Shown: positions 31,884 to 49,507 of the stretch, piece after piece | How positions within the stretch are numbered: position 1 is the first letter of the stretch | Layout: each line of letters starts with the position of its first letter | Source of the DNA: Chloroflexota bacterium | GTDB lineage: Bacteria; Chloroflexota; Limnocylindria; Limnocylindrales; CSP1-4 | Direction of reading: 5' to 3' | Assembly (NCBI GenBank): GCA_015478725.1 | Contig: JADMIG010000019.1 | Coordinates: forward strand, 1-51,055 | Length of the DNA stretch: 51,055 nucleotides | Position numbers and translations under genes: made by a program | The notes under the pieces: generated by a model | The model's input: only the letters and a program-made list of their open reading frames with translations | What the model was told of the DNA's origin: nothing | The model's database searches: none

Positions 31884-32933
31884 GTGGACGACGAGGGACG
31901 CACCAAGCTGGCCGAGCGGGCCCGTCGACGCGGGCGACCTGGCGAGGCGCGCTCGGCGCGAGCCGACGGTCGGCCCGTCGCGGACCCATCGGGCGGCTGC
32001 CGATACCTGCACGCGGCGACGGGGGACCCGGCCTGTCTCGCCATCGCCCCGGCGATCCACCTCGGACCGCGGCAGGTCGACCTCGTGTGCGCCGGATCGA
32101 CCCACGCGACATGTCCGAGGTTCGCCCGCGGCCGCGCGGCCGTGAGTCCGCCTCCGCCGGTCGCGGACCGCGCGAACCTGCCGGCGGCGGCCGCCGCTGC
32201 CGCTGCCGCTACCGCTGCCGCTACCGCTGCCGCTACCGCTGCCGCTGCCGCTGCCGCTGCCGCTACCGCTGCCGCTACCGCTGCCGCTGCCGCTGCCGCG
32301 CCACCGGTCATCGAGCCGGTGATCCTCGCCGCCGCGGTCGGGTCGTCGACGGCTCTCGCGACGGGGGAGTCCGAACCCGTCGCCGCCCCGCGCGAAGCAC
32401 CGGACCGGCGCATCCGCGGTGCGCTGCCGACGACCCGATCGATCGTCGCCCGCCCGGCAACGATCGCGGCGGCACTGACGTTCGTCGTCACCCTGGCCGC
32501 AGCGATCGCCTTCCTCGACGCTCGAGGCGGGCTCGCCCTCCTGCCGGCCAGGACGTCCCCGTCCGTCGTCGCGCCCGCGCCGTCGGCCGCCCCGCCCACC
32601 GCCTCGCCGTTCGCTTCCGTCGGTCCATCGCCGACCGCCGCACCGCCCTCTGCCGTCGTCTCGCCGCCGAGCGCCGCACCGCCGACCGCGGTCGCCGTCG
32701 CCACGCCCTCGTTCCCAGGCTCCTCGCTCCCGCCGGATCTCGTCGCGCTCCTCATCCCGTGCCCGGATGGCTCCGGATGCTCGCAGTACCGGATCCGGAG
32801 CGGTGACACGCTGAGCGGCGTCGCAACCCTCTTCGGTGTCGCGTACCAGGCGATGCTCGCGGCGAACCCGGGGATCGCGAACCCGTCCCTCATCCACGTC
32901 GGGCAGCTCGTCACGGTCCCGATCCCGCACTGA
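31884..32933 (+). CDS. Membrane-anchored LysM protein with N-terminal cysteine cluster
   Basis: The 349-residue product has four parts. Residues about 37-82 hold four cysteines (C39-x11-C51-x17-C69-x7-C77) in a pattern beginning CRYL and ending CPRF, with H74 nearby. Next is an Ala/Thr tract (about 104-140) coded by hexanucleotide repeats, then one membrane span (about 193-213), an Ala/Pro/Ser-rich linker, and a C-terminal LysM domain (about 302-346; YRIRSGDTLSGVATLFGV) that binds peptidoglycan. By topology the cysteine part is cytoplasmic and LysM is outside. GTG 31884 has GGAGG just upstream. I recall similar C-x-Y-L...C-P-R-[YF] motifs in uncharacterised Chloroflexota LysM proteins; the cluster may bind metal. 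Confidence 0.8.
   Translation: MDDEGRTKLAERARRRGRPGEARSARADGRPVADPSGGCRYLHAATGDPACLAIAPAIHLGPRQVDLVCAGSTHATCPRFARGRAAVSPPPPVADRANLPAAAAAAAAATAAATAAATAAAAAAAAATAAATAAAAAAAPPVIEPVILAAAVGSSTALATGESEPVAAPREAPDRRIRGALPTTRSIVARPATIAAALTFVVTLAAAIAFLDARGGLALLPARTSPSVVAPAPSAAPPTASPFASVGPSPTAAPPSAVVSPPSAAPPTAVAVATPSFPGSSLPPDLVALLIPCPDGSGCSQYRIRSGDTLSGVATLFGVAYQAMLAANPGIANPSLIHVGQLVTVPIPH
32190..32299 (+). repeat. Hexanucleotide repeat tract (GCCGCT/GCTACC)
   Basis: About 110 bases consist of GCCGCT units mixed with GCTACC variants, all in frame, coding runs of Ala broken by Thr in the LysM protein linker. Steps of six bases keep the frame, so slippage would change linker length by two residues rather than switch the gene off. 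Confidence 0.95.
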
Positions 32934-33013
32934 GCCCGCGCGCGGTTTCGCGCGACCGTTCGGCCCTCGCGCGACCGTTCGGCCTCGAACGCCCGCCTTC
33001 CGATGTTTCCACA

Positions 33014-33041
33014 TTGACGGGAGCCCGTCGCCGTGTAGAAT
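33014..33041 (+). promoter_or_regulatory. dcw-cluster promoter
   Basis: TTGACG (33014-33019), 16 bases, TAGAAT (33036-33041): five of six consensus matches in each box, with TG directly before the -10. It is the best promoter in the window and lies about 130 bases before mraZ, so the untranslated leader holds the GTGG repeats. Confidence 0.75.
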
Positions 33042-33050
33042 GCCGGGCAA

Positions 33051-33084
33051 GTGGCGCATAGTGGTGAGAAGTGGGGAGCAGTCC
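33051..33084 (+). promoter_or_regulatory. Probable MraZ operator (MraZ boxes)
   Basis: Three direct repeats of GTGG start at 33051, 33061 and 33071, exactly 10 bases apart, with a degenerate fourth (GTCCC) at 33081. This matches the known MraZ operator layout (three or four GTGG/TGGG-type boxes on one DNA face, as in E. coli and Mollicutes). They begin about 9 bases after the -10, so they cover the transcription start. This implies autorepression of the whole division operon by MraZ. Confidence 0.75.
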
Positions 33085-33169
33085 CACAAATCCCCGGGAG
33101 CGGGGCACCGCCGGCGCCGCCGAACGGCACGCATCGCCCGGACCACAGACGACAGGGGTAGCGAGGCAC

Positions 33170-33598
33170 GTGTTCACCGGCGAGTACCGGCACTCGGTGG
33201 ACGACAAGGGACGGCTCGCCGTGCCTGCGCGCTTCCGCGCCCAGCTCGAGGATGGCGCCTTCATCTCGAAGTGGCTCGACGACTGCCTCGCCATCCACAC
33301 CCGCGGCGGGTGGGAGACCCTCGCCGCGAAGACCGCGACACTGCCGCTCGCGAACGCGGCGTCACGTGCGTTCCAGCGCCACATCTTCGGCGGCGCGGTC
33401 GAGGTGGAGCTCGATCGCCAGGGTCGAGTCGTCCTGCCGGCCTACCTTCGTGCGTTCGCAGCCCTCGAGGGTGACGTCGTCATCGTCGGGGCGCGGGACC
33501 ACGCCGAGATCTGGGCACCCGCCCGCTGGGACGAGATCCGACGGAGCCTCGAGGACCCGCAGACGCTCGCGGCACACCTCGACGGGCTCGGGATCTGA
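33170..33598 (+). CDS. mraZ: Transcriptional regulator MraZ
   Basis: This DNA-binding AbrB/SpoVT-fold protein is the first gene of the dcw cluster. The 142 residues contain two MraZ repeats, each with a DxxGR motif: FTGEYRHSVDDKGRLAVPARFR (start) and VELDRQGRVVLPAYLR (about 80-95). GTG 33170 fits the family N-terminus, with GAGG three bases and AGGGG eleven bases upstream; the frame open to 33071 overlaps the operator. The stop overlaps the rsmH start (TGATG). Confidence 0.96.
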   Translation: MFTGEYRHSVDDKGRLAVPARFRAQLEDGAFISKWLDDCLAIHTRGGWETLAAKTATLPLANAASRAFQRHIFGGAVEVELDRQGRVVLPAYLRAFAALEGDVVIVGARDHAEIWAPARWDEIRRSLEDPQTLAAHLDGLGI

Positions 33599-34602
33599 TG
33601 GCCCACCACATGCGCTTCCAGGATCTGCTCGGGATCCGTTCGACGACCGAGGATGACGACGTGGAGGAGGAGCACCTGCCGGTGCTGGTGGAGGAGGTCG
33701 TCGAGATGCTCGCGCCCGCTCCCGGCAGCCTCCAGGTCGACGCCACGGTCGGCGGCGGTGGGCACACCGAGCGGATCCTGGAGGCGACCGATCCCGATGG
33801 CCGTCTCCTCGGTCTCGATGCCGATGGGGCGGCCATCGCGAGGGTCGGCCGGCGTCTGGCCCGCTTCGGCGACCGACTCGTCCTCCGCCAGGTGAACTTC
33901 CGCGAGCTGGCCACGGCCGCACCGGCCGCGGGATTCGGCCGCATCGACGGTCTCCTGTTCGACCTCGGGCTCTCGAGCCAGCAGCTTGCCGGCACGGACC
34001 GCGGGTTCGGGTTCCGGGCCGGCGGCCCGCTCGACATGCGCTTCGATCCCTCCGCGGGCGTTCCGGCGGCGTACCTCATCGCGACCCTCGACGCGGAGGC
34101 CCTCGCCGCGCTGTTCCGTCGCTACGGAGAAGAGCCGAACGCCCGAAGAATCGCGCGGGCGATCGTCGAGCAACGGCGGAGCGCGCCGATCGAGACCGCG
34201 GAGGCGCTGGCGGCTCTCGCCGAGCGCGTCGTGCCGGTCGACCCGCGCCGTCCGCGCCGTCGCCACCCCGCGACCCGTGTCTTCCAGGCACTGCGGATCG
34301 CGGTCAACGCGGAGCTCGAGGCACTCGAGGCGGCCCTCGCCGCCGCCGTCGAGCTCCTCCGGCCGGGCGGCCGGCTCGTCGTCCTCAGCTATCACTCGCT
34401 CGAGGATCGGATCGTCAAGCGCTTCATCGCCGCGGAGCGGAAGGGATGCGTCTGCCCGCCCGAGCTGCCCATCTGCGTGTGCGGACGCGAACCGCGCCTG
34501 CGCCCGCTCGGACCGTCACGCACCCCCCGACCGGAAGAGGTCGCCGCCAATCCCCGCTCCCGGAGCGCTCGGCTCCGGGCCGCTGAACGGATCGCCGCCT
34601 GA
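33598..34602 (+). CDS. rsmH: 16S rRNA (cytosine-1402-N4)-methyltransferase
   Basis: This SAM-dependent enzyme methylates C1402 in the ribosomal P site. The 334 residues have the SAM motif DATVGGGGHTERIL, LFDLGLSSQQL, MRFDP and SYHSLEDRIVKRF, all hallmarks of RsmH (MraW). A 26-residue N-terminal extension precedes the usual HLPVLVEEV start; internal starts are possible but the ATG overlapping the mraZ stop is natural. It is followed by a small gene not usual at this place. Confidence 0.97.
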   Translation: MAHHMRFQDLLGIRSTTEDDDVEEEHLPVLVEEVVEMLAPAPGSLQVDATVGGGGHTERILEATDPDGRLLGLDADGAAIARVGRRLARFGDRLVLRQVNFRELATAAPAAGFGRIDGLLFDLGLSSQQLAGTDRGFGFRAGGPLDMRFDPSAGVPAAYLIATLDAEALAALFRRYGEEPNARRIARAIVEQRRSAPIETAEALAALAERVVPVDPRRPRRRHPATRVFQALRIAVNAELEALEAALAAAVELLRPGGRLVVLSYHSLEDRIVKRFIAAERKGCVCPPELPICVCGREPRLRPLGPSRTPRPEEVAANPRSRSARLRAAERIAA

Positions 34603-34867: not shown

Positions 34868-35281
34868 GTGGCGGTCTATCACGGCGCGCGCCCCCGGACC
34901 GGCTTCGCCGGTACCCGCATCGGCATCCGGCGCGACGCGGTCGCTCCGGCGGCGTCCATCGCACCGCCGACCGCCCTCCCGCGGCGAAGGACCCGCTCGG
35001 CGGTGCGGGCCGGCACCCGCCCCGCCCGCATCGGGTTCGTCCTCGGGGGCATCGTCGTCGCCTTCCTCCTCGCGTTCTTCTCGCTCGCCCAGAGCGTCCG
35101 GGTGTCCGCGAGAAGCTACGATCTCGCCTCGCTCCAGACGGATCGACAGCGGATGGAGGCGACCCTCCAGGACCTGGCGACGAACATCAACCGGCTCGGG
35201 AGCGCGCCGGCGATCCGGAAGCAGGCGATCGACGCCGGGCTGAGTCAGCTCGCCGCGCCGCTCGTCGTCGCGGCCCGCTGA
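34868..35281 (+). CDS. ftsL: FtsL-like septum protein
   Basis: The 137-residue bitopic protein has a long basic N-terminal cytoplasmic part (about 1-54), one membrane span (about 55-75, IGFVLGGIVVAFLLAFFSLAQ) and a short coiled-coil outer part (about 80-115; LASLQTDRQRMEATLQDL). This topology and its position directly before the division PBP match FtsL, which forms a complex with FtsB/DivIC and FtsQ. Sequence identity to known FtsL is always low, so the call rests on topology and place. GTG 34868 is used. Confidence 0.75.
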   Translation: MAVYHGARPRTGFAGTRIGIRRDAVAPAASIAPPTALPRRRTRSAVRAGTRPARIGFVLGGIVVAFLLAFFSLAQSVRVSARSYDLASLQTDRQRMEATLQDLATNINRLGSAPAIRKQAIDAGLSQLAAPLVVAAR

Positions 35282-35297
35282 CGCGCTCGATCGAACG

Positions 35298-37112
35298 ATG
35301 CTCGGTCGGACCGACTCGCACCGCCGCCACCTCCTGATCCTCCTCGTCCTCGCGATCGTGGCGACCGCGCTCGGCGCCCGGCTCGCCTGGTGGCAGGTCG
35401 TCCGTGGCGCGAGCCTCGCGGCCGACGCCCGCGCGCAGACGACCGTGACGATCCAGGATCCATCGCGACGGGGGACGATCTACGATCGGAGCGGGACGGT
35501 CGTCCTCGCCACGTCAGTCGATCGCTACCGGCTCATCGGCACGCCCGGGATCCTCAGCCTCGACGCGCGTCAGCGCACCGCCCAGGCCATCATCGCGCTG
35601 CTCGGCCTGAATGCGGCGGATGCTCTCGACCTGACGACGAAGATGATCTCCGACCGGGGGTACGTCGTCCTCACCCACGGGATCGACGAGGCGACCGCCC
35701 GGAAGATCCGTGACGGGCTCGCGAGCGGGGCGCTCGCCGGACTGTCCCTCGAGTCCGAGCCCACGCGGCTCTACCCGCTCGCCGGCGGCTCGCCGGGTTC
35801 CACCCTCGGCGCCCAGATCCTCGGCTTCGTCAACCGCGACGGCGCCGGTCAGTACGGCCTCGAGGAGTACTACCAGGCGCAGCTGGCCGGCCAGCCGCTC
35901 ATCGAGGTCGCCCAGCGCGACACGAACGGCGACCCGGTGCCGTCGACGATATCCGTCCAGTCGCCAGGCGTTCCGGGCTCCGACATCCGACTCTCCATCG
36001 ACGCCGGCTTCCAGCTCCAGCTCGAGCAGGAGCTCCTCGCCGCGGGGGTCGCCGATCGGGCCGTCAGCGTCTCCGGCGTCGTCATGGACCCGACCACGGG
36101 CCAGATCTACGGCGAGGCGACCTATCCCTCCTACAACGCCAACGACTACGCGACGATCGCGGCGACCGATCCGGCGCGGTTCGTCGATCCGGTCGTCAGC
36201 TCCGTCTACGAGCCCGGCTCCGTCTTCAAGCTCTTCACCGCGCTCGCCGCCTTCACGAACGGGACGGTGAATCCCGCCACGAAGATCGATGACAGCGGGT
36301 CGCTCGCGCTCGACGGCGGGACGGCCAAGGTCTGGGATTCGGACCTCCGCCCGATGGGCTGGATCCCGTTCCAGGACGTCGTGGCGTACTCACGGAACGT
36401 CGGGGCGGCGCGGGTCGCCCTCGGCCTGGCGAAGACGACCGACCAGGCCGCGGCGATCCTCGAGTCGACCTGGCTCAGGATGGGCTTCGGCCAGCCGACC
36501 GGGATCGACCTCGCCGGCGAGGTGGCCGGGATCGTCCGCGACCCGACGATCTCGCCGTGGCGCCAGATCGACCTCGCGAACGGCGCGTTCGGCCAGGGCG
36601 TGGCCGTGACGCCCATCCAGCTCGCGACCGCCTACAGCGCGATGGTCAACGGCGGGACGCTCATCACGCCGCACGTCGTCGTGTCCATCGGAGGGAACCC
36701 CGTGACCGTGCCGTCGCGGGGTCGGGTCATGACGACCGAGATGTCGAACGAGCTCGTGGCACTCATGAGCCATGTCGTCCACGCCGTCCCCTGGTATCGC
36801 GATAACACGCTCATCCCGGGGTACGTCGTGGGGGGCAAGACCGGAACGGCCCAGATCTGGGATCCCAAGGCCGACCATGGACGCGGGGCGTGGAAGACGA
36901 CGTACGACTACTCATTCATCGGCTACGTCGGCCGAGACCGGCCGCAGCTCGTCATCGCGATCACGATCCGCGAGGCTCAGCCGATGGTGGTCGCCCAGGG
37001 ATACCTGCCGCTCCGGGTGGAAAGTTACGAGCTGTTCCGCCGCGTTGCGACGGACGCCATGGGGACCCTCGACCTGTCGGCGAACCCGACCGCGTCCGTC
37101 GCCCACCCGTGA
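35298..37112 (+). CDS. ftsI: Septal penicillin-binding protein (class B transpeptidase, FtsI/PBP2)
   Basis: This is the peptidoglycan transpeptidase for the septum, with 604 residues: a short cytoplasmic start, one span (about 11-33), the PBP dimer domain with RGTIYDRSG, and the transpeptidase domain with SVFK (S308 nucleophile, K311), SRN (365-367) and KTGT (514-517). All active-site motifs are intact. ATG 35298 is 16 bases after ftsL. The stop overlaps the murF start (GTGA). Confidence 0.94.
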   Translation: MLGRTDSHRRHLLILLVLAIVATALGARLAWWQVVRGASLAADARAQTTVTIQDPSRRGTIYDRSGTVVLATSVDRYRLIGTPGILSLDARQRTAQAIIALLGLNAADALDLTTKMISDRGYVVLTHGIDEATARKIRDGLASGALAGLSLESEPTRLYPLAGGSPGSTLGAQILGFVNRDGAGQYGLEEYYQAQLAGQPLIEVAQRDTNGDPVPSTISVQSPGVPGSDIRLSIDAGFQLQLEQELLAAGVADRAVSVSGVVMDPTTGQIYGEATYPSYNANDYATIAATDPARFVDPVVSSVYEPGSVFKLFTALAAFTNGTVNPATKIDDSGSLALDGGTAKVWDSDLRPMGWIPFQDVVAYSRNVGAARVALGLAKTTDQAAAILESTWLRMGFGQPTGIDLAGEVAGIVRDPTISPWRQIDLANGAFGQGVAVTPIQLATAYSAMVNGGTLITPHVVVSIGGNPVTVPSRGRVMTTEMSNELVALMSHVVHAVPWYRDNTLIPGYVVGGKTGTAQIWDPKADHGRGAWKTTYDYSFIGYVGRDRPQLVIAITIREAQPMVVAQGYLPLRVESYELFRRVATDAMGTLDLSANPTASVAHP

Positions 37113-38569
37113 GCTTCGCGTGTGCGACACTCCCACCCGTGACCGACGCCCTGCCGCGGTCGTGGAGAGGGGCGACCGAGCCGGCCTTCACCGCCGCCGA
37201 GCTCGTCAGCCTGACCGGTGGACGCCTCCTCCGCGCCGGCGCCCGACCGATCCGCCGCGCCGCGGTCGACTCCCGGTCGGTCACCCCGGGCTGCCTGTTC
37301 GTGGCCCTGCCCGGCGAGCGGACAGACGGTCACGCCCACGTCGCGGACGCCGCGGCGGCCGGCGCGGCGGCGATCCTCGTCACCCGCCGGCCGGACGACG
37401 ACGTGCTCGAGCGGCTCGGCGACGTGACGGTCATCGAGGTCCCCGATGGTGTCCGCGCGCTCGGGGCACTCGCCGCCGACTGGCGCGCACGGTTCGCGCC
37501 GCTCGTCGTCGGGGTGACCGGGAGCATCGCCAAGACATCCACGAAGGAGGCGATCGCGACGGTCCTCGACCGACGGTTCTCGACCCTCCGCAGCGAGGGC
37601 AACCGGAACAACGAGATCGGTTTGCCGCTGACGCTCCTCGACCTGGGCCCCGAGCACGAGGCGGCGGTCCTCGAGATGGGCATGTACGTCGGCGGCGAGA
37701 TCGCCGACCTGGCGGCCATGGCACGACCGTCGATCGGGGTCGTGACGGCGGTCGAGCCGGTTCACCTGAGCCGGATCGGGACGCTCGAGGCGGTCGAGCG
37801 CGCGAAGGGCGAGCTCGTGGAAGCGCTCCCGCCGGACGGCGCGGCGGTCCTCAACGCGGACGACCCGCGGGTCGTCCGGATGGCCGGGCGGACGGTCGCC
37901 CGGGCCGTCACCTACGGGTTCTCGGCCGCCGCCGACGTCAGGGCGGAGACCGTCGTGAGCCGGGCCGCGGACGGCATGCGGTTCGTCCTCCGGACCCCGG
38001 CGGGGAGCCGGCCGGTCCTCACCGCGGCGCTCGGCCGCCACGGTGTCCACAACGCCCTCGCCGCCGCCGCGGTCGGCCTCGCCGCCGGCGTGGACCTCGA
38101 CGAGATCGCGGCGGGCCTGGCAGGCGGTTGGTCCGCTCCGCATCGGGATCGCCTCGTGCGGGTGGGGTCGGTGACGATCCTCGACGACAGCTACAACGCC
38201 TCGCCGGCGTCGATGACGGCGGCGCTCGACCTCCTCGCGACGCTGCCGGGGAGGCGACGGATCGCCGTCCTCGGCGAGATGCTCGAGCTCGGCGACACCC
38301 ACGAGGCGGGGCACCGAGCCGTCGGCGCCGTGGCGGCCCGCATCGTCGATCTGCTCGTCGTCGTCGGCGCCGGCGCGACACCCCTCGCCGAGGCCGCCCG
38401 CGAGCACCCTCGACTCGCCGGGCGCGTCCTCCAGGCGAGCGACGCGCTCGCCGCACTCGCGCTCCTCCGGCCGCTCCTCGAGGCCGGCGACGTGGTGCTC
38501 GTCAAGGGATCCCGCGGGATTGCCCTCGAGGCAATCGTCGATACGCTCGCTGCCGAGGCGGGCGCGTGA
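37109..38569 (+). CDS. murF: UDP-N-acetylmuramoyl-tripeptide--D-Ala-D-Ala ligase
   Basis: The ligase adds D-Ala-D-Ala to the muramyl tripeptide. The 486 residues have the MurF N-domain (VDSRSVTPGCLFVALPGERTDGH split into usual segments), GNRNNEIGLPLTLL, LEMGMYVGGEI, HNALAAAAVG and DDSYNASPASM. The P-loop reads TGSIAKTSTKE (K142), in which the Gly normally just before Lys is Ala141; this is unusual. GTG 37109 overlaps the PBP stop; GTG 37139 is an alternative start. MurF normally follows murE, which is absent here. Confidence 0.92.
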   Translation: MSFACATLPPVTDALPRSWRGATEPAFTAAELVSLTGGRLLRAGARPIRRAAVDSRSVTPGCLFVALPGERTDGHAHVADAAAAGAAAILVTRRPDDDVLERLGDVTVIEVPDGVRALGALAADWRARFAPLVVGVTGSIAKTSTKEAIATVLDRRFSTLRSEGNRNNEIGLPLTLLDLGPEHEAAVLEMGMYVGGEIADLAAMARPSIGVVTAVEPVHLSRIGTLEAVERAKGELVEALPPDGAAVLNADDPRVVRMAGRTVARAVTYGFSAAADVRAETVVSRAADGMRFVLRTPAGSRPVLTAALGRHGVHNALAAAAVGLAAGVDLDEIAAGLAGGWSAPHRDRLVRVGSVTILDDSYNASPASMTAALDLLATLPGRRRIAVLGEMLELGDTHEAGHRAVGAVAARIVDLLVVVGAGATPLAEAAREHPRLAGRVLQASDALAALALLRPLLEAGDVVLVKGSRGIALEAIVDTLAAEAGA

Positions 38570-39552
38570 GAGGCGGCGTCGTCGAGCTCATCCAGGGCCT
38601 GTTCCTCGCCTTCGCCATCGTCGTCATCCTCATGCCGGGCTACATCCGGCTCCTTCGCGCCATCGGGATCGGCAAGCAGATCCGCGAGGAAGGTCCGCAC
38701 ACCCATCTGGTCAAGCAGGGGACCCCCACGATGGGCGGGCTCCTCATCGTCGTCGTCGTCGCCCTCTGCGCGTACTTCCTCGGTGCCCTGGACGCCTCGA
38801 CGTACTCGCCGGTCGCGACCCTGGTCGGGGTCGGGCTTCTCGGTGCCTTCGACGACTACCTCAACGCGAAGACCGGCAACGGGATCCGGGTTCGCCAGAA
38901 GCTGCTCTGGCAGATCGTCGTGGCGATCCTCGCCGCGATCTACATCCAGCGGCACTTCGCGATCACGGACATCCGGGTCCCGTTCGTCGGCGACGTGACG
39001 ATCGGGCCGTTGCTCTATGTCGTGTTCGCCGCCTTCGCCATCGTCGCCGCGAGCAACGGCGTCAACATCACGGACGGACTCGACGGACTCGCCGGCGGGA
39101 CGGCGATCTTCGCCTTCGTGGCGTACCTCATCATCGCCCTCCTCAACGTACCCCAGCAGCCGAACCTCGCCCTGCTCTGCGCGATCATCATCGGGGGAAC
39201 GCTCGGCTTCCTCTGGTTCAACGTCCATCCAGCCCAGATCTTCATGGGGGATTCGGGCGCCCTGTCGCTCGGTGCGACGCTCGCGGTCACCGCCCTCATC
39301 ACGGGCCAGATCCTCGTGCTGCCCCTGATCGGGATCATCTTCGTCGCGGAGACCGGGTCCGACCTCCTCCAGTTCGCCTATTACCGGGCGACCGGCGGCC
39401 GCCGCCTCTTCCGGATGGCGCCGCTGCACCATCACTTCGAGCTCGGCGGCTGGGACGAGGAGAAGATCACCCTCCGGTTCTGGATCGTCTCGATACTCGC
39501 CGGGATGCTCGGGGTGACGTTCTTCCTCGCCTCGATCCGGGCGCTGGCGTGA
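38566..39552 (+). CDS. mraY: Phospho-N-acetylmuramoyl-pentapeptide-transferase
   Basis: This integral membrane enzyme makes lipid I from UDP-MurNAc-pentapeptide and undecaprenyl phosphate. The 328 residues show about ten spans with the catalytic DD motif in GAFDDYLN, NITDGLDGLAGG, and HHHFELGGWDE near the C-terminus. GTG 38566 overlaps the murF stop. Slightly short compared with E. coli MraY (360). Confidence 0.96.
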   Translation: MRGGVVELIQGLFLAFAIVVILMPGYIRLLRAIGIGKQIREEGPHTHLVKQGTPTMGGLLIVVVVALCAYFLGALDASTYSPVATLVGVGLLGAFDDYLNAKTGNGIRVRQKLLWQIVVAILAAIYIQRHFAITDIRVPFVGDVTIGPLLYVVFAAFAIVAASNGVNITDGLDGLAGGTAIFAFVAYLIIALLNVPQQPNLALLCAIIIGGTLGFLWFNVHPAQIFMGDSGALSLGATLAVTALITGQILVLPLIGIIFVAETGSDLLQFAYYRATGGRRLFRMAPLHHHFELGGWDEEKITLRFWIVSILAGMLGVTFFLASIRALA

Positions 39553-39559
39553 GCGGGCG

Positions 39560-41161
39560 ATGACGACGATGACGAACCTCCGGCCGATCGACCTCGATGC
39601 CCTCACCCTCGCCGCGATCGCGGATGGCGCGCTCGACGGCCGTCCGGTCACGGTCCTCGGCGCGGCCCGCAGCGGCCGTGCGCTGGCCCGGTTCCTTGCC
39701 GGCATCGGGGCGGCCGTGACGCTCTACGACGGGCGACCAGCGGCGGAGCTCGACCCGGTCGCCGAGGTGCCCGGGCAGCGCGGCGGATCCGTCCGCATCG
39801 TCGCCGGGCCGGAGATCGACCCGGCGCGGGTGCTTGCCGGCGCCGCGCTCGTGACGACATCGCCCTCGATCAACCCGGACTTCCCGACGACCGAGCCGCG
39901 ACTCCGGGCCGCGCTGCGGGCGATGGTCGAGGCTCGCCGAGCGGGCGACGCGATGGCCCCGGCGCTCGTCTCGGAGGCGGATCTGTTCCTGCGGCTCTGT
40001 CCGGCGCCGACGATCGGCGTCACCGGGACGAAGGGGAAGACGACGACGTCCTCGCTCGCCGCCGCGATCCTCGCCGCGGATCCCGGCCATCCGGTCGAGG
40101 TCGGCGGCAACATCGGGCGCCCGCTCGTCGAGGTCCTGCCGGAGCTCGGCCCCCGCCATCGGGTCGTGATCGAGCTGTCCGAGCTGCAGCTCCCGACCCT
40201 CTCCCGTGGCACGACGGTGGCCGTCTACACGAACGTGACCGCCGACCATCTCGACCGTCACGGGACGCTCGAGTCATATCGCCGGGTGAAGCGCCGGCTG
40301 GCCGAGCTGGTCGATCCGGACGGCGCACTCATCCTCAATGCCGAGGACCCGGTCGTCACGGCCTACGCCGGGCTCGGCGGCGCGCCGGCCGTCCTCTACC
40401 GCACGGCCGCGCCGATGCCGGGCGGGATCGGCCTCGTCGACGGCTGGATCGTCGCCGCCGGCGTCGATCGGCTCCCGATGGCCGGGGGCGGGCCCGCCGC
40501 GACCGGACCCGGCGGACGGATCATGCCGATCGACGAGCTCGTCCTTCCCGGTCGGCACAACGCGAGCAATGCGATGGCGGCGATCGCCGTCGGCCTCCTG
40601 TTCGGCGTCGCTCCGGATGCGATCCGCCGGGCGGCCGCGGCGTTCCCCGGCGTCGAGCACCGCCTCGAAGCGGTCGGCCGCATCGGCGCCGTCCGCTTCG
40701 TCAACGACTCGATGGGCACCCAGCCGGACGCCGTCGTCGCGGCGCTGCGCGCCTTTGCGCGGCCGATCGTCCTCATCGCCGGCGGGCGGGACAAGGAGAT
40801 CGACCTCGCATCGCTCGCCCCTGTCGTCGCGGAGCGGGCCGTGGCGGCCGTGCTGATCGGCGAGAGCGGGACGCGGCTCGAGCGCCTGTTCCGAACGGCC
40901 GGCCTCGAGCGGACGGAGCGAGCCGCATCGCTCGACGAGGCAGTGGACCGAGCCCACGGCCTGGCGCTCGAGGCCCTCGGGACGGCGCCGCGCGGAGCGG
41001 TCGCGACGGTCCTCCTCAGCCCGGCCGCCGCATCGTTCGACATGTTCGAGGACTACGCGGCGCGCGGCCGCGCGTTCAAGGCCGTCGTCGCCGCCCGCAT
41101 CGCTGCCGCCCGCGGCGAGCTCGACGTCGCCGACCGCCCCGACGAGAAGGAGGACCGATGA
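39560..41161 (+). CDS. murD: UDP-N-acetylmuramoyl-L-alanine--D-glutamate ligase
   Basis: The ligase adds D-Glu. At 533 residues it is longer than usual (about 440-460) because of insertions in the N-terminal domain (about 60-135) and near residues 290-310. It has VLGAARSGRALARFL, P-loop GVTGTKGKTTTSS, GGNIGRP, ELSELQL, NVTADHLDRHGTLESY, and HNASNAMAAIA. ATG 39560 lies eight bases after the mraY stop. The stop overlaps the ftsW start (ATGA). Confidence 0.94.
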   Translation: MTTMTNLRPIDLDALTLAAIADGALDGRPVTVLGAARSGRALARFLAGIGAAVTLYDGRPAAELDPVAEVPGQRGGSVRIVAGPEIDPARVLAGAALVTTSPSINPDFPTTEPRLRAALRAMVEARRAGDAMAPALVSEADLFLRLCPAPTIGVTGTKGKTTTSSLAAAILAADPGHPVEVGGNIGRPLVEVLPELGPRHRVVIELSELQLPTLSRGTTVAVYTNVTADHLDRHGTLESYRRVKRRLAELVDPDGALILNAEDPVVTAYAGLGGAPAVLYRTAAPMPGGIGLVDGWIVAAGVDRLPMAGGGPAATGPGGRIMPIDELVLPGRHNASNAMAAIAVGLLFGVAPDAIRRAAAAFPGVEHRLEAVGRIGAVRFVNDSMGTQPDAVVAALRAFARPIVLIAGGRDKEIDLASLAPVVAERAVAAVLIGESGTRLERLFRTAGLERTERAASLDEAVDRAHGLALEALGTAPRGAVATVLLSPAAASFDMFEDYAARGRAFKAVVAARIAAARGELDVADRPDEKEDR

Positions 41162-42423
41162 CGATCGCCCGGGCCATCCCCACGCGTCGTCCGCGGACCG
41201 GAACGCTGCAACGTGAGCACCATCAACCCGACTACGTGATCCTCGTCGCCGTCTTTGCCCTCGTCGCGATCGGCGTGCTCATGGTCTATTCCTCGTCGGC
41301 GATGTCGTCGTACCTGGCGTCGGACGACACGTTCAAGGTCGTCGGCCCGCAGGTCGTGTGGGCCGCGGTCGGGCTGATCGGGCTGCTCGTCGCGAGCCGG
41401 ATCGACTACCGCTACTGGCGCCTGGTCTCCGTCCCCCTCTATCTCGTGGCCCTCGGACTCCTCATCGTGGTCGTCTTCGTCCCTTCGCTCAACTACGTGG
41501 TCGGTGGCTCGGCGCGATTCCTGCGGATCGGTCCGCTGCCGCTCTTCCACCCGGCCGAGTTCGCGAAGCTCGCCCTCGTCATCTACCTCGCCCACTGGTT
41601 CGCCCGGCGCGGCGGCAGGGTCCGCGAGTTCTGGCGCGGGACGCTGACGTTCCTCGTCATCGTCGGCCCGATCGTCCTCCTCGTCATCCGCGAGCCGGAT
41701 CTCGGGACGTCCGCGGTCCTCGCCCTCACGGCGTTCGCGATGTTCTTCGTCGCCGGGGCGAACCTCTTCCATCTCGTCGCGATGGTGTCGGCGGCGACCG
41801 TCGGCCTCGGCGCCGTCATCGCGACCCATCCGTACCAGCTCGACCGCATCCGGGCCTTCCTCGACCCGTGGAGCGATCCGGCCGGCGCCGGCTTCCACAC
41901 GATCCAGGGTCTCATGGCGCTCGCCCTCGGGGGCGTGGTGGGGGCCGGCCTCGGCCAGAGCCGGCTTGCAGGCGGGCTGTTCCTGCCGAACGCCTACAAC
42001 GACTTCATCTTCGCCATCATCGGCGAGGAGTTCGGGCTCATCGGTGGGGCGATCGTCATCGGCCTCTTCCTCGTCATCGGCTACCAGGGCATCCGGATTG
42101 CGCTGAGCGCACCCGACACGTTCGGGGCCCTCCTCGCCGGTGGCATCACCGCCTGGATCTGCATCCAGGCGTTCATCAACATCGGGGTGGTCGTCGTGCT
42201 CGTGCCCGTCACGGGCATCACCCTGCCGTTCGTCAGTGCCGGCGGGTCGTCGCTCGCCATCACCCTGGCGGCCGTCGGGATCCTCCTGTCGGTCTCGCGG
42301 GAGACGGTGGAGAAGGGGACATGGAACGATGCGTCTGCTGATCGCGGGCGGGGGAACGGGCGGGCACATCTACCCGGCCCTGGCCGTCGCTCGATCGCTC
42401 CGCGCTCGACCCGACCCGCCTGA
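41158..42423 (+). CDS. ftsW: Septal peptidoglycan glycosyltransferase FtsW (SEDS)
   Basis: This membrane polymerase of septal peptidoglycan has 421 residues and about ten spans, with SEDS landmarks VGGSARFLRIGP, FHPAEFAKLALVIYLA, REPDLGTSAVL, NAYNDFIFAIIGEEFGL and PFVSAGGSSL. ATG 41158 overlaps the murD stop. The last 31 residues (NDASADRGRG onward) are read from the same DNA as the first 95 bases of murG in another frame; this tail is hydrophilic and unlike other FtsW, so it may be a consequence of losing an earlier stop. Confidence 0.95.
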   Translation: MTIARAIPTRRPRTGTLQREHHQPDYVILVAVFALVAIGVLMVYSSSAMSSYLASDDTFKVVGPQVVWAAVGLIGLLVASRIDYRYWRLVSVPLYLVALGLLIVVVFVPSLNYVVGGSARFLRIGPLPLFHPAEFAKLALVIYLAHWFARRGGRVREFWRGTLTFLVIVGPIVLLVIREPDLGTSAVLALTAFAMFFVAGANLFHLVAMVSAATVGLGAVIATHPYQLDRIRAFLDPWSDPAGAGFHTIQGLMALALGGVVGAGLGQSRLAGGLFLPNAYNDFIFAIIGEEFGLIGGAIVIGLFLVIGYQGIRIALSAPDTFGALLAGGITAWICIQAFINIGVVVVLVPVTGITLPFVSAGGSSLAITLAAVGILLSVSRETVEKGTWNDASADRGRGNGRAHLPGPGRRSIAPRSTRPA

Positions 42424-43480
42424 CCTCGTCTGGGTCGGCGGCCATCGCGGGCTTGAGGCGAACCTCGTCGCGGAGGCGGGGATCCCGCTCGAGCGTCTCG
42501 CGCTCCGTTCGCTCCGCACGGTCGAACGGGACATGCACCTCGTCCTCGATCCGGTCCGTCTCGGGCTGTCCGTCCCGCAGGCCGCGGCCATCCTGCTTCG
42601 GGAGCGGCCGGCGGCGATCTTCACGACGGGCGGATACGTCGCGATCCCCGTCCTCCTCGCGGCGGCGCCGCTCCGGATCCCCGTCGTGATGTGGGAGGGG
42701 AACGTGGTCCCCGGGCGGAGCGTCCGGGCGACCGCCCGCCTCGCCCGGGTGCTCGCGGTCAGCTTCGCGGCGACGGCTGCGGCGCTCCGGTCACCGGCGC
42801 CGTGCTATGTCACCGGGACGCCGATCCGCGACATCCGCGGCGTCGATCCGGGGGCGGCCCGGACCGGGTTCGGCGTGCCGCCGGGAGCGCGGGTCCTCCT
42901 CGTCTTCGGCGGCTCACAGGCCGTGCTGCGGTTCAATGCCGCCGTCGCCGCCGCGCTGCCGGCGCTCGTCGAACGGATGTACGTCATCCACGTCACCGGG
43001 GAGGACGGCTATGCCGGCGCCCTCGACGGGCGAGAGCGGCTCCCGCTGGAGCGTCGCGCACGGTACCTTCCGTATCCGTTCCTTCGCGAGCAGATGCTGC
43101 CCGCCCTCGCGGCCGCCGACCTCATCGTGGGCCGCGCCGGCTCATCGACCCTCGCCGAGGTCGTCGCACTCGGGACTCCGATGGTGGTCGTCCCGTACCC
43201 CCATGCCGCGGGGCACCAGCGCGCCAATGCCCGGGTCCTCGTCGAGGCCGGCGCGGCCCGGCTCGTCGAGGACGAGGCGTTCGATGCGGCAGCGCTCATC
43301 GACGCGGCGGGCATTCTCGCCGACCCGGCGACTCACGTCCGGATGGCGGCGGCGGCGAGGGCGCTGGGACGGCCCGGGGCCGCCGAAGCGGTGGGCACGC
43401 TCCTCCTCGCAGTCGCCCGCCGCGCACCGCTCCCGGATGCGGCGACGATCGAGCGGATCGCCCGGGCGGGTGTAGCGTGA
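42329..43480 (+). CDS. murG: UDP-GlcNAc--lipid I N-acetylglucosaminyltransferase
   Basis: The enzyme makes lipid II at the inner face of the membrane. The 383 residues begin with RLLIAGGGTGGHIYPALA, and show TTGGYVAIPV, WEGNVVPGR (usual: HEQN), FGGSQ, GRAGSSTLAE and PYPHAAGHQRANA. ATG 42329 is the family start and has AAGGGGA about ten bases upstream; it lies 95 bases inside ftsW. The stop overlaps murB (GTGA). murC, usually next, is absent. Confidence 0.95.
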   Translation: MRLLIAGGGTGGHIYPALAVARSLRARPDPPDLVWVGGHRGLEANLVAEAGIPLERLALRSLRTVERDMHLVLDPVRLGLSVPQAAAILLRERPAAIFTTGGYVAIPVLLAAAPLRIPVVMWEGNVVPGRSVRATARLARVLAVSFAATAAALRSPAPCYVTGTPIRDIRGVDPGAARTGFGVPPGARVLLVFGGSQAVLRFNAAVAAALPALVERMYVIHVTGEDGYAGALDGRERLPLERRARYLPYPFLREQMLPALAAADLIVGRAGSSTLAEVVALGTPMVVVPYPHAAGHQRANARVLVEAGAARLVEDEAFDAAALIDAAGILADPATHVRMAAAARALGRPGAAEAVGTLLLAVARRAPLPDAATIERIARAGVA

Positions 43481-44484
43481 CGGGCACGACCTTCGATCCG
43501 CTCGCCGTGGGTTCGGAGATCCAGCGCCGGCTCGGCGTCAAGACGTCGCGAGACGAACCGCTGGCGCGCTTCACGACGATGCGCGTCGGCGGTCCGGCGG
43601 ACCTCTTCGCGGTCGCCCACAACGCGTTCGAGCTCCGCGGACTCGTGAAATTCGCCCGGAACCGAGGCATCGAGCACACGGTCCTCGGTCGCGGGAGCGA
43701 CGTCGTCATCGCCGACGCCGGGATCCGTGGTCTCGTGATCCAGGTCCGGGCGGAGGGCGTACAGGTCGCGGACGGGCGGCTCGTCGCGGAGGCCGGCGTG
43801 CCCATGGCGCGTGCCGCGACGGTCACCGCGGACGCCGGGCTGTCCGGTCTCGAATTCGGCCTCGCCATCCCGGGCACGGTCGGTGGCGCCGTCTGGGCCA
43901 ACGCCGGCGCCCATGGCACGGACATGGGGGGCGTCGTCGAGTCGGCGACCGTCCTGCTCGCGGACGGGACCGAACGACGACTCGCGGCGGACGAGCTCGC
44001 CCTCGGCTACCGGACGAGCCGGTTCAAGGATCGCGACCGGCGGTCGGACGTGACGGGCGGGTCGATCGCACCCGCCCCGGTCGGAGCCGACGAACTCGTC
44101 GTCGCCGCGACGTTCGCCCTCGAGCCGGCCGACCAGGCGACCATCCGGACCCGGCTCGACGAGATCCGTCGCTGGCGGCAGGCGCACCAGCCGCTCGGGA
44201 TCCCGAGCGCCGGCTCGGTGTTCCGGAACCCGTCGGGCGGTCCGAGCGCCGGCGCGCTCATCGACGGCGCCGGTCTCAAGGGCGCGACCGAGGGCGGCGC
44301 GACGGTGAGCCCGAAACATGCGAACTTCATCGTCAACGACCGGCGGGGCAGTGCGGCGGACGTCCGGCGTCTCGCCGACCGCGTCCGGGCCGAGGTGGAG
44401 GGGCAGACGGGCGTGCGACTCGAATTCGAGATCGCCTTCATCGGCGCGTGGGGGGACTGGTCGTCCGAGGGAGGGTCGGAGTGA
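43477..44484 (+). CDS. murB: UDP-N-acetylenolpyruvoylglucosamine reductase
   Basis: This FAD enzyme makes UDP-MurNAc. The 335 residues include TTMRVGGPADLF, LGRGSDVVIAD, GLEFGLAIPGTVGGAVWANAG split across the FAD site, YRTSRFK with the catalytic Arg, the catalytic Ser in SAGSVFRNP and a C-terminal Glu in EFEIAFIG. This is the type I/II core form. GTG 43477 overlaps the murG stop; its own stop overlaps ddl. Confidence 0.95.
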   Translation: MTGTTFDPLAVGSEIQRRLGVKTSRDEPLARFTTMRVGGPADLFAVAHNAFELRGLVKFARNRGIEHTVLGRGSDVVIADAGIRGLVIQVRAEGVQVADGRLVAEAGVPMARAATVTADAGLSGLEFGLAIPGTVGGAVWANAGAHGTDMGGVVESATVLLADGTERRLAADELALGYRTSRFKDRDRRSDVTGGSIAPAPVGADELVVAATFALEPADQATIRTRLDEIRRWRQAHQPLGIPSAGSVFRNPSGGPSAGALIDGAGLKGATEGGATVSPKHANFIVNDRRGSAADVRRLADRVRAEVEGQTGVRLEFEIAFIGAWGDWSSEGGSE

Positions 44485-45599
44485 CCGCCGCCGACCGCCC
44501 GATCGTCGTCCTCCTCGGCGGTCCCTCGGCGGAGCACGACGTCTCGATCGTCTCCGGGCACGCTGTCGCCGATGCGCTCGAGGGCCGCCACCGGGTCGAG
44601 CGGGTCCTCATCGACCTCGATGGCGGGTGGTGGTGGCTGCCGCCCGATCATCGCCGCGCCGATCGACCGGCGGCGGCGTACGACGATCCGGCCGCGCTCG
44701 GGGCGGACGGCCCGCGCTCGGCCGGGGCCGCGATCGACCGGATCGCGGCGGCGGAGCCGGCGCCCGTCGTCTTCATCGCGCTCCACGGTCCGTTCGGCGA
44801 GGATGGTACGGTCCAGGCGCTCCTCGAGGCGGGGGGCGTGGCGTACACGGGCTCCGGCGTCGCCGCGTCGGCGATCGGGATGGACAAGGCGATCTTCAAG
44901 CGCCTCATCCGCGGCCTCGGCCTCCCGCTCGTCGACTGGCGGGAGATCCCGGCCGCGCGCTGGCACGACGATCCGACGGCCGTCCTCGCCGAGCTCGAGG
45001 CGTTCGCCCTCGGGATCGACGATCCGCGCCTCATGATCAAGCCGGCCCGCCTCGGCTCGAGTGTCGGGATGACCCTCGCTCACGGCCCGGACGAGCGCGG
45101 CCCGGCCCTCGAGACCGCGTTCCGCTACGACACGCTCGCGCTCGCCGAGGCGTACGTCGCCGGCGCCCGCGACCTCGAGGTGAGCGTCATCGGCGACGCC
45201 GCCGCCGGGCTCCGGCTGTATGGCCCGGGTGAGATCATCGCCGGCCACGAGTTCTACGACTACGCCTCGAAGTACACGGCCGGCCTGTCGGAGACGTCCC
45301 TCCGCGCGGAGCTCCCGGCCGCCACGCGGGCGACGGTCCTCAAGCTCGCCCGCGATGCGTACCGGGCGATCGGCGCCGAGGGATTCGCCCGGGTCGACTT
45401 CCTGCTCGCCGGCGACACGCTCGTCGTGAGTGAGATCAACACGATCCCGGGCTTCACGCCCATCAGCCTCTTCCCCACGCTTCCGGCCGAGGGCGGGCTC
45501 GATTTCGCGGCCGTCTGCGAACGGGTCGTCGAGCTCGCGGTCGAGCGGCACGATCGCCGACCCTCGCGCCGTCTCGCCGCGGACGATCTTCCGCGATGA
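44481..45599 (+). CDS. ddl: D-alanine--D-alanine ligase
   Basis: This ATP-grasp ligase supplies D-Ala-D-Ala to MurF. The 372 residues have LLGGPSAEHDVSIVSG, ALHGPFGEDGTVQ, YTGSGVAASAIGMDK, IKPARLGSSVGMT, and EINTIPGFTPISLFP. The last motif and the Tyr in KYTAG fit D-Ala rather than D-Lac specificity, though that is not proven. GTG 44481 overlaps the murB stop. Its stop overlaps ftsQ (ATGA). Confidence 0.95.
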   Translation: MTAADRPIVVLLGGPSAEHDVSIVSGHAVADALEGRHRVERVLIDLDGGWWWLPPDHRRADRPAAAYDDPAALGADGPRSAGAAIDRIAAAEPAPVVFIALHGPFGEDGTVQALLEAGGVAYTGSGVAASAIGMDKAIFKRLIRGLGLPLVDWREIPAARWHDDPTAVLAELEAFALGIDDPRLMIKPARLGSSVGMTLAHGPDERGPALETAFRYDTLALAEAYVAGARDLEVSVIGDAAAGLRLYGPGEIIAGHEFYDYASKYTAGLSETSLRAELPAATRATVLKLARDAYRAIGAEGFARVDFLLAGDTLVVSEINTIPGFTPISLFPTLPAEGGLDFAAVCERVVELAVERHDRRPSRRLAADDLPR

Positions 45600-46423
45600 G
45601 ACGGCCGGCCGGCCGGCGGACCGCAGGCTCGCCGAGGCGCAGCCGGATCCGGCGCGCATCGGCCGGCTTCTCGCCGCTCCGCGCCGGTGCGCTCCTCGTC
45701 ATGCTCCTCTGCATCGGGGCGATCTACGGCGTCGCCGCGACGTCCGTCTTCGGCTATGTCGGGATGACCCTCGACGGAGCCCGCTTCACCTCCGAGACCG
45801 CGATCTCGGATGCGCTCCGGGTGGACCACGGAACGAACGTCGTCACGCTCCGCACGGACGCCCTGGCGGCCGCGATCCGAACCCTGCCGACCGTCCGCGA
45901 CGCGACCGTGTCCGTGGCGCTGCCGGGCACGCTCCTGGTCCACCTCGCCGAACGCGAGCCGATCTTCATCTGGACGACCGCGAGCGGTCGTTTCCTCGTC
46001 GATCGCGACGGCGTCCTCTTCGCGTCCGCGGACGCCGCGCCGGCCTCCGCGACGGCCGGCCTGCGGTCCGTCACCGATGCCCGATCGACCGCCGCGGTCC
46101 TCGCCGTCGGGGCGAGCCTGGATCCCGTCGTCCTCGACGCCGCGAGGCGCCTCGGGTCGCTCACCCCGGCGGACGTCGGGAGCGCGGCGCCATCCCTCGC
46201 TCTCACCATCGACGACACCGATGGGTTCGTCCTGAGCAGCGGTCCGACGGGCTGGTCGGCCACGTTCGGGTTCTATACCCCCACCCTCCGGACCCCCGAC
46301 ATCATCCCCGGGCAGGTGCGGTTCCTGCGGAGCCTGCTCCGCCGGATCGCGGAGTCGAGGATCGCGAGGATCGTGCTCGCCGATCCCACGAGCGGCACGT
46401 ACACCCTGAAGAACGGCCAGTGA
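45596..46423 (+). CDS. ftsQ: Cell division protein FtsQ (DivIB)
   Basis: The bitopic division protein has 275 residues: an Arg-rich cytoplasmic part (1-28), one span (about 29-52), a POTRA domain (about 58-127; FTSETAISDALRVDHGTNVVTL, VRDATVSVALPGTLLVHLAEREPI) and the FtsQ/DivIB beta domain with FLVDRDGVLF. The start overlaps the ddl stop. The position before ftsA/ftsZ supports the call. Confidence 0.9.
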   Translation: MRRPAGRRTAGSPRRSRIRRASAGFSPLRAGALLVMLLCIGAIYGVAATSVFGYVGMTLDGARFTSETAISDALRVDHGTNVVTLRTDALAAAIRTLPTVRDATVSVALPGTLLVHLAEREPIFIWTTASGRFLVDRDGVLFASADAAPASATAGLRSVTDARSTAAVLAVGASLDPVVLDAARRLGSLTPADVGSAAPSLALTIDDTDGFVLSSGPTGWSATFGFYTPTLRTPDIIPGQVRFLRSLLRRIAESRIARIVLADPTSGTYTLKNGQ

Positions 46424-46534
46424 ATCGCCATCGCGGCATCCGCGAGCCGGGTCGTCCGTGCGGATCTCGGGTTGCCGCGCCTCCGCTGCGTCGGGTAGCC
46501 TTGGCGAAACCCCATCGTTCGAGGACGATCACCC

Positions 46535-46858
46535 GTGTTGCTCCCCCTGGCAGGCCTCGTCGCCGGCGTCCTGCTGGGGCTCGTCCTCAAAGTCAATGTC
46601 AGCTTCGAGTTCGCCCGCTACAGCGCGGTGGCGATCGTGGTCGCACTCGATTCGGTCCTCGGCTCGGTGCGGGCGGAACTCGACGGCGTCTACGACAATC
46701 GGATCTTCATCAGCGGCTTCGTGACGAACGTGGTCATCGCCGTGATCCTCACCTTCATCGGCGACCGGCTGGGCGTGGATCTCTACCTCGTGGCCCTCAT
46801 CACGTTCGGGCCGCGGATCTTCAATAACGTGGCGCTCATCAGGCGTCACTTCCTCTAG
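46535..46858 (+). CDS. sbp: Small basic protein Sbp (DUF1290)
   Basis: This small membrane protein family lies between ftsQ and ftsA/ftsZ in many monoderm bacteria; its function is unknown. The 107 residues have two or three spans (about 2-20, 27-45 and 60-80) with the family landmarks LLGLVLKVNVS, AIVVALDSVLGSVRAEL and FISGFVTNVVIAVILTFIGDRLGVDLYLV. GTG 46535 has GAGGA about eight bases upstream. It is separated from ftsQ by 111 bases with a weak TAGCCT (about 46497) that might start an internal transcript. Confidence 0.93.
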   Translation: MLLPLAGLVAGVLLGLVLKVNVSFEFARYSAVAIVVALDSVLGSVRAELDGVYDNRIFISGFVTNVVIAVILTFIGDRLGVDLYLVALITFGPRIFNNVALIRRHFL

Positions 46859-46880
46859 ACAGGAACGAGGCGGCACGGGA

Positions 46881-48113
46881 GTGGAACGAGAAGCGATCCT
46901 CGTCGGGGTCGATGTCGGGACGAGCAAGGTGACCGCGCTCATCGGCGAGGTCCACCGCGACGGGAGCCTGACGATCATCGGCAAGGGGCTCATGCCGGTC
47001 ACCGGCATCAAGCGCGGCCAGGTCGTCAACATCGACCAGACCGTCCACGCGATCAGCGGCGCCGTCGAGCAGGCGGAACGGCTGTCGGGGATGAAGATCG
47101 ACCGGGCGTTCGTCTCGGTCGGCGGGCAGCACGTCGAGAGCCAGAACTCGCCGGGCACGGTGGCCGTCAGCGGCCACGACCGCGAGGTCACTCGCGAGGA
47201 CGTGAACCGTGCGACCGAAGTCGCCCGGGCCGTGCAGATCCCGTCGAATCGCGAGGTCCTCCACGTCATCCCCCGCGACTTCAGTGTCGACGACCAGGAG
47301 GGAGTGAAGGACCCGGTCGGGATGAGCGCCATCCGTCTCGGCGTCGAGGTCCACATCGTCACCGCCTCGGCGACCGCCGTCCAGAACCTCACCAAATGCG
47401 TCGTCGCGAGCGGCGTCAAGATCGACGAGCTCGTCGCGGGCTCGTACGCCTCGGCCGAGACGGTCGCCCTGGAGACCGAGCGCGAGCTTGGCGTAGCGGT
47501 CGCCGACATCGGTGCCGGGACGATCGACCTCGCCCTCTTCACCGATGGAGCGCCGCTCTACTGCGCGGTTCTCCCGGTCGGCGGCAACAACGTGACGAAC
47601 GACATCGCGATCGGCCTCAAGACGAGCCTCCAGGTCGCCGAGGAGCTGAAGGTCCATCACGGGACGTGCGACCTGCGCATGATCGATCCGGACGAGCGGA
47701 TCAGTGTCTCGGTCCTCGGCGAGGACGCCGGCCGGGAGGTGAGCCGCCTCGAGGTGTGCCAGATCATCGAGGCCCGCATGCGCGAGACCTTCGAGCTCGT
47801 CCGCGATCAGCTCCGGCGGTCCGGCCACGGGATGCTCCCGGCGGGGATCGTCCTCACCGGCGGCGGCGCGCAGCTCGGCGGGGTCGCGGAGCTCGGTCGG
47901 GAGGTCCTCCAGATGACGGTCCGGATCGCGGCGCCGACGGGGATCGAGGGGCTCGTGGACGGGCTCCTCACGCCGGCCAGCTCCAACGCGGTCGGGCTCC
48001 TCCTCTGGGGCGCCCGCCAGCTCACGGCGGGTGAGCCGATGCGGTACGAGTCGGCCCCCGCACTCGGCGGACTCGGGCGCATCCGCGACGCGCTGCGGAG
48101 CATCTTCCCGTAA
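46881..48113 (+). CDS. ftsA: Cell division protein FtsA
   Basis: This actin-like protein tethers FtsZ to the membrane. The 410 residues include the phosphate-1 motif VGVDVGTSKVTALIGE, the 1C subdomain (about 80-160), VADIGAGTIDLALF, LTGGGAQLGGV, and a C-terminal amphipathic helix (GLGRIRDALRSIFP) for membrane binding. The presence of FtsA argues against Actinobacteria. GTG 46881 is used, with a GGCACGGGAG site upstream. Confidence 0.96.
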   Translation: MEREAILVGVDVGTSKVTALIGEVHRDGSLTIIGKGLMPVTGIKRGQVVNIDQTVHAISGAVEQAERLSGMKIDRAFVSVGGQHVESQNSPGTVAVSGHDREVTREDVNRATEVARAVQIPSNREVLHVIPRDFSVDDQEGVKDPVGMSAIRLGVEVHIVTASATAVQNLTKCVVASGVKIDELVAGSYASAETVALETERELGVAVADIGAGTIDLALFTDGAPLYCAVLPVGGNNVTNDIAIGLKTSLQVAEELKVHHGTCDLRMIDPDERISVSVLGEDAGREVSRLEVCQIIEARMRETFELVRDQLRRSGHGMLPAGIVLTGGGAQLGGVAELGREVLQMTVRIAAPTGIEGLVDGLLTPASSNAVGLLLWGARQLTAGEPMRYESAPALGGLGRIRDALRSIFP

Positions 48114-48161
48114 GGTCCGCGGCGCGGCGAACCGGGACGCCCCGAGTGGGGACGGCGGCGG

Positions 48162-48167
48162 TATACT
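48162..48167 (+). promoter_or_regulatory. -10 element upstream of ftsZ
   Basis: TATACT, five of six consensus matches, lies about 100 bases before ftsZ in the 158-base gap after ftsA. No -35 fits at 16-18 bases. A separate ftsZ promoter here would let ftsZ be made in excess of the upstream division genes. Confidence 0.45.
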
Positions 48168-48271
48168 CCCCGGACGCTCCGCCGACGCGAGGCCGTCGAG
48201 GGGTCACCACTGCGACCATCCGCGCCACCTGACGCGATCCATCACCGGCACGAGCACCGGAGGAGACGGCG

Positions 48272-49503
<1,232 letters not shown>

Positions 49504-49507
<4 letters not shown>

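Follow-up and report, generated by a model that had tools for sequence, protein, structure and literature searches.

A predicted MraZ operator at the dcw promoter of a Chloroflexota bacterium of the class Candidatus Limnocylindria

The dcw promoter, its repeats and the MraZ protein

The stretch of DNA analysed here (51,055 nucleotides, hereafter the window) carries a dcw cluster with mraZ as its first gene, and 5' of mraZ, at the head of the cluster, lie a sigma-70-like promoter and an array of three GTGG repeats (Table 1). Judged by its closest named relatives, the genome belongs to the Chloroflexota, class Candidatus Limnocylindria, in agreement with the sequence-only reading, which had taken it for Chloroflexota-like. 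These relatives are MAGs under the names Chloroflexi/Chloroflexota, Candidatus Limnocylindrales, Ca. Limnocylindrus and Ca. Aquidulcis, and the NCBI taxonomy has the order Limnocylindrales and the genus Aquidulcis in this class. NCBIfam or Pfam matches support an ftsI-like PBP gene, murF, mraY, murD, ftsW, ddl, ftsA and ftsZ in the cluster; ftsL, murG, murB and ftsQ are putative assignments from gene order only. The gene directly 5' of the dcw promoter (31884-32933) codes for a protein that has a LysM domain (Pfam PF01476) and a long stretch of low complexity rich in alanine.

Table 1. Positions of the promoter elements, repeats and genes of the dcw locus in the window
Feature	Position	Strand	Remarks
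-35 hexamer TTGACG	33014..33019	+	promoter scan; kept in the class
-10 hexamer TAGAAT, spacer 16	33036..33041	+	promoter scan; class leaders
Predicted MraZ box 1, AGTGG	33050..33054	+	class consensus AGTGGC
Predicted MraZ box 2, AGTGG	33060..33064	+	class consensus AAGTGG[G/T]G
Predicted MraZ box 3, AGTGG then GGA	33070..33074	+	class consensus AGTGGGGA
Weak inverted repeat GTGGG-gagcagt-CCCAC	33071..33087	+	p = 0.115 in the window, not significant alone
mraZ, 142 aa, GTG start	33170..33598	+	TIGR00242; frame extension to 33071 not coding
mraW/rsmH	33598..34602	+	overlaps the mraZ stop; next gene in the presumed operon
Rest of dcw cluster	34868..49507	+	same direction

The repeats follow one another at steps of exactly 10 bp in the layout TTGACG-16-TAGAAT-8-AGTGGCGCATAGTGGTGAGAAGTGGGGAGCAGTCC (33014-33084), and the fourth 10-bp step (33080) is degenerate and reads AGTCC. 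TTGACG/TAGAAT was the sole sigma-70-like site that the promoter scan detected in 32900-33300; it has 10/12 matches, and shuffles give 0.1. The -10 box is separated by 8 nt from AGTGG (33050) and by 9 nt from GTGG (33051), and when the transcription start site is placed from the -10 box, the array is predicted to begin at +1 or a few bases off. The start codon of mraZ, GTG at 33170, follows the first GTGG by 119 bp. Thus, the arrangement first noticed from the letters of the DNA, namely three GTGG repeats at exact 10-bp steps (33050, 33060 and 33070), a TTGACG/TAGAAT promoter directly 5' of them (33014-33041) and mraZ, identified by its TIGR00242 match, after them, was confirmed, and the claimed position of the array at +1 holds as a prediction.

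The MraZ protein passes the equivalog model TIGR00242 with 113.9 bits (cut-off, 98.35). Its AlphaFold2 monomer model, with a mean pLDDT of 93.4, matched the MraZ proteins of Mycoplasma pneumoniae and M. genitalium in a Foldseek search (9qlg, 1n0e and 9sz7; TMq ~0.77-0.88), and among the matches are the DNA-bound cryo-EM entries 9R4J and 9SZ7 from M. genitalium (promoter and 4-box promoter, respectively). Each half of the protein contains one D-x-x-G-R DNA-binding motif, two in all, and R15 and R86 are invariant in an alignment of 12 sequences.

Conservation and rarity of the array

We gathered mraZ leaders from relatives, from the class and from the phylum by a Pfam search, together with a search of named genomes, and scored each leader by its best ungapped match to GTGG at three 10-bp steps, with a maximum score of 12. 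A perfect triplet (12/12) was found in 83 of the 96 distinct leaders from Limnocylindria, the class of the window, and in 38/47 leaders from other Chloroflexota, the latter fraction being no estimate of prevalence because sampling of the phylum favoured MraZ matches with higher scores. No dinucleotide-shuffled leader reached 12 (0/1920 for the class, 0/940 for other Chloroflexota), and 11 was reached by 0.2-0.3% of them. Conservation of the repeats in relatives, proposed beforehand as the way to check the array, is therefore clearly seen. In some members of the phylum mraZ itself was not detectable.

The conservation is concentrated on the boxes. GTGG is 95-100% identical by position in all three, and the spacers and flanks are not; the base after GTGG is preferentially C in box 1, G or T in box 2 and G in box 3 (91%) within the class. 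The distance from the end of the -10 box to the first GTGG is also kept, being 7-9 nt in 87/93 class leaders, and 72/93 were assigned a promoter spacer of 16. By contrast, the leader 3' of the array drifts in length and content among relatives, and in the class 53-189 nt separate the array from the start codon. In a relative from the same genus (L025), whose MraZ is 84% identical, the promoter and the boxes align and other parts of the leader do so with gaps only. Deviating leaders were L184, L197, L074 and L176; in L007 the contig ends before the array.

The array is also rare within genomes. AGTGG-N5-AGTGG-N5-AGTGG occurs a single time in the window, and in the whole genome GTGG-N6-GTGG-N6-GTGG was found in the mraZ leader and as an overlapping pair in a tandem repeat of contig C8, and nowhere else, the reversed control giving 0 matches. 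The C8 sequence (C8:40910-40943; G000, L216) consists purely of 10-bp tandem units, (GTGGCCGGAC)n, which imitate the spacing of MraZ sites and have the look of a minisatellite or a coding repeat and not of an operator; with this as the only other 10-bp GTGG array, no wider MraZ regulon was found in the genome. A search of 83 genomes from the class gave 33 exact matches to the AGTGG triplet and 0 to its reversed control, and the coordinates of most of the 33 lie just 5' of mraZ matches. One genome (G064) has a second copy at a contig end; because an mraZ start follows it, this copy is a second assembled mraZ leader.

These data bear on a trivial explanation, that a 10-bp repeat arose here by chance in GC-rich DNA or that the repeats belong to a coding extension of mraZ. 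The mraZ frame is indeed open back to 33071, and the C8 repeat shows that a 10-bp GTGG repeat is present once more in the genome. Nevertheless, a chance origin was ruled out by the conservation of the triplet in mraZ leaders as against shuffled leaders and by the empty reversed control in 83 genomes, and the coding extension was ruled out because in relatives the leader differs in length and is interrupted by in-frame stops, leaving this explanation with a negligible probability.

Known MraZ operators and a proposed mechanism

MraZ boxes are reportedly present at the Pmra promoter of Escherichia coli (Eraso et al. 2014, as cited in other papers). In the sequence of E. coli K-12 we found three GTGG at exact 10-bp steps between a TTGACA promoter and mraZ (AGTGGGAAATTGTGGGGCAAAGTGGG), so that the number of repeats, their phasing and their place right after the promoter and before mraZ are all as in the window. 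The two differ in that the first GTGG is 44 bp from the start codon in E. coli and 119 bp from it in the window, and in that box 1 continues with C in the window (AGTGGC) and with G in E. coli. The same GTGG layout was seen in six leaders from the Thermoactinomycetaceae (Bacillota), where it follows TATAAT or TATACT.

In Burkholderia cenocepacia, MraZ was shown by gel shift to bind four 7-nt GTG repeats with 3-nt spacers, which lie 3' of the -10 box and overlap the start site, and the MraZ site of E. coli is likewise stated to be 3' of the -10 box (PMC7761207). The 10-bp period, the location 3' of the -10 box and the overlap with the start site (a predicted one in the window) are shared with PmraBc, which has four repeats whereas the window has three and a degenerate fourth. 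The Mollicutes site is given as AAAGTG[T/G] (Fisunov et al. 2016, cited in PMC8475190). The genome of M. genitalium has a single MraZ site, and in an mraZ mutant of this species mraW, MG_223 and ftsZ are up about 4- to 8-fold (PMC8475190). The window resembles these systems in the AAGTG core, in a site that is essentially the only one of its genome and in a MraZ of the same fold, presumably likewise a ring protein. It differs in that its boxes are G+C-rich, with GTGG in place of GTG[T/G], and in that M. genitalium has a reduced dcw cluster and a four-box promoter, as named for 9SZ7. Binding of MraZ to such repeats in other phyla, which the sequence-only reading had put forward, is documented (PMC7761207, PMC8475190; 9R4J, 9SZ7). 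We found no published account of MraZ sites in Chloroflexota in the literature searched.

Because the comparisons with E. coli, the Thermoactinomycetaceae, B. cenocepacia and M. genitalium agree, the layout in the window is that of the known MraZ operator. We therefore consider, with a probability of about 95%, that 33050-33074 is the MraZ operator of the dcw promoter, a reading based on the sequence, spacing, conservation and promoter position of the boxes, on their near-uniqueness and on the identity and fold of MraZ. Autorepression of the presumed dcw operon by MraZ, as the sequence-only reading had proposed, would then be the best reading of the arrangement. MraZ, encoded by the first gene of the operon, would bind the three GTGG boxes, which are one helical turn apart, and sit on them as a ring. 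With the first box at the predicted start of transcription, this ring would block either the initiation of RNA polymerase or its promoter clearance, and mraZ would be repressed together with the division and cell-wall genes that follow it, closing a negative feedback loop with mraZ and the dcw genes as its single target. The known mechanism is left unchanged; what is extended, through the Chloroflexota, a phylum of which much is uncultured, is the range of the putative MraZ operator, whose 10-bp phasing and placement at the promoter stay the same. As it reaches through this phylum, autoregulation of dcw at its first promoter looks ancient and strongly conserved, and the array can serve as a clean motif when dcw promoters are annotated in metagenomes.

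Hairpins and DnaA boxes at the array

The box-3 hairpin of related families and the DnaA boxes described below may be the newer observations of this work. In the window, box 3 overlaps a weak inverted repeat (33071..33087) that represents a fourth, inverted box or else a small hairpin. A conserved hairpin was rejected here, as the structure is visible and not significant (p = 0.115). An RNA leader family and a terminator were also rejected, with no Rfam match and no terminator-like site found.

Elsewhere in the class the pairing is stronger. In families f3 and f5, pairing of box 3 and its spacer with a 3' arm beats pairing with shuffled arms (p <= 0.05) in 15/16 leaders, a fraction that counts sequences and not events because these leaders are phylogenetically related. 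The mean z is -3.09, and the register shifts between genera with the stem kept, as in GGACGGT-GGGGA-ACCGTCC and GACAGGTGG-GGAA-CCATCTGTC. Leaders of f3/f5 with the box-3 stem, just 5' of mraZ, include L065, L199-L205, L059, L063, L069 and L008. In family f1, to which the window belongs, pairing was weak (p <= 0.05 in 7/58 leaders); no effect was detected in family f2 by the shuffled-arm test, which gave 9/42 for the rest of the phylum.

If the repeats acted mainly as RNA, the dcw mRNA would begin with them, and a hairpin between box 3 and a 3' element would affect the stability or translation of this mRNA. The stems of f3 and f5, which beat shuffled arms and stay in place while their registers shift, speak for such a role, as does the retention of the GTCCCAC arm in the same-genus relative. 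However, the pairing is weak in the window, in f1 and in the rest of the phylum, Rfam gave no match, and an RNA role leaves the exact 10-bp phasing and the identity of GTGG across phyla unexplained; we regard this explanation as very unlikely. A narrower version, in which some members of the class also use box 3 for an inverted fourth MraZ site or for a 5' mRNA hairpin, is doubtful but deserves somewhat more credence, and a 5' mRNA hairpin would place the dcw transcript under an additional, post-transcriptional control.

Among the 47 leaders of other Chloroflexota, 11 have a perfect DnaA box, TGTGGATAA, that overlaps a MraZ box or lies 3' of the array. Shuffles gave an expectation of 0.08 such leaders, which is too low because the MraZ array already dictates GTGG; conditioned on GTGG, a rough estimate would put the expectation below one, well under the 11 observed. 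The leaders with a DnaA box over MraZ box 1 or 2 are L072, L075, L077, L082, L084, L086, L087, L088, L090, L159 and L174, and in five of these 11 another DnaA box, not in phase with the 10-bp steps, sits just 3' of the array. When 201 whole genomes were searched for the pattern of the DnaA/MraZ composite, 10 had it, of which 8 were placed by coordinates at mraZ and 1 on a contig other than that of mraZ, with 1 unplaced. Through these DnaA boxes the dcw promoter may be tied to the initiation of replication, and DnaA is known to bind the ftsL promoter region of Bacillus subtilis (PMC8203912).

Both the excess of DnaA boxes and the B. subtilis case lend something to the idea that the site bound by MraZ is an activator or dual-use site, or one shared with another regulator such as DnaA. 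On the other hand, TGTGGATAA was seen in 0/96 leaders of the class of the window, and boxes 3' of the predicted start site fit repression. We consider a shared or activating site marginally less probable even than a mainly RNA-based role, and retain the reading of the array as a repressing MraZ operator.

The array itself varies in one further family, f4 (L051, L052, L060, L064, L005 and L057), in which some boxes read ATGG in place of GTGG and the array continues in phase with extra boxes, to a total of four or more; the specificity of MraZ may be slightly shifted in this family. Several Chloroflexota genomes (e.g., G123, G146, G181 and G202) have four MraZ-domain matches each, which suggests that there are two mraZ paralogues in such lineages.
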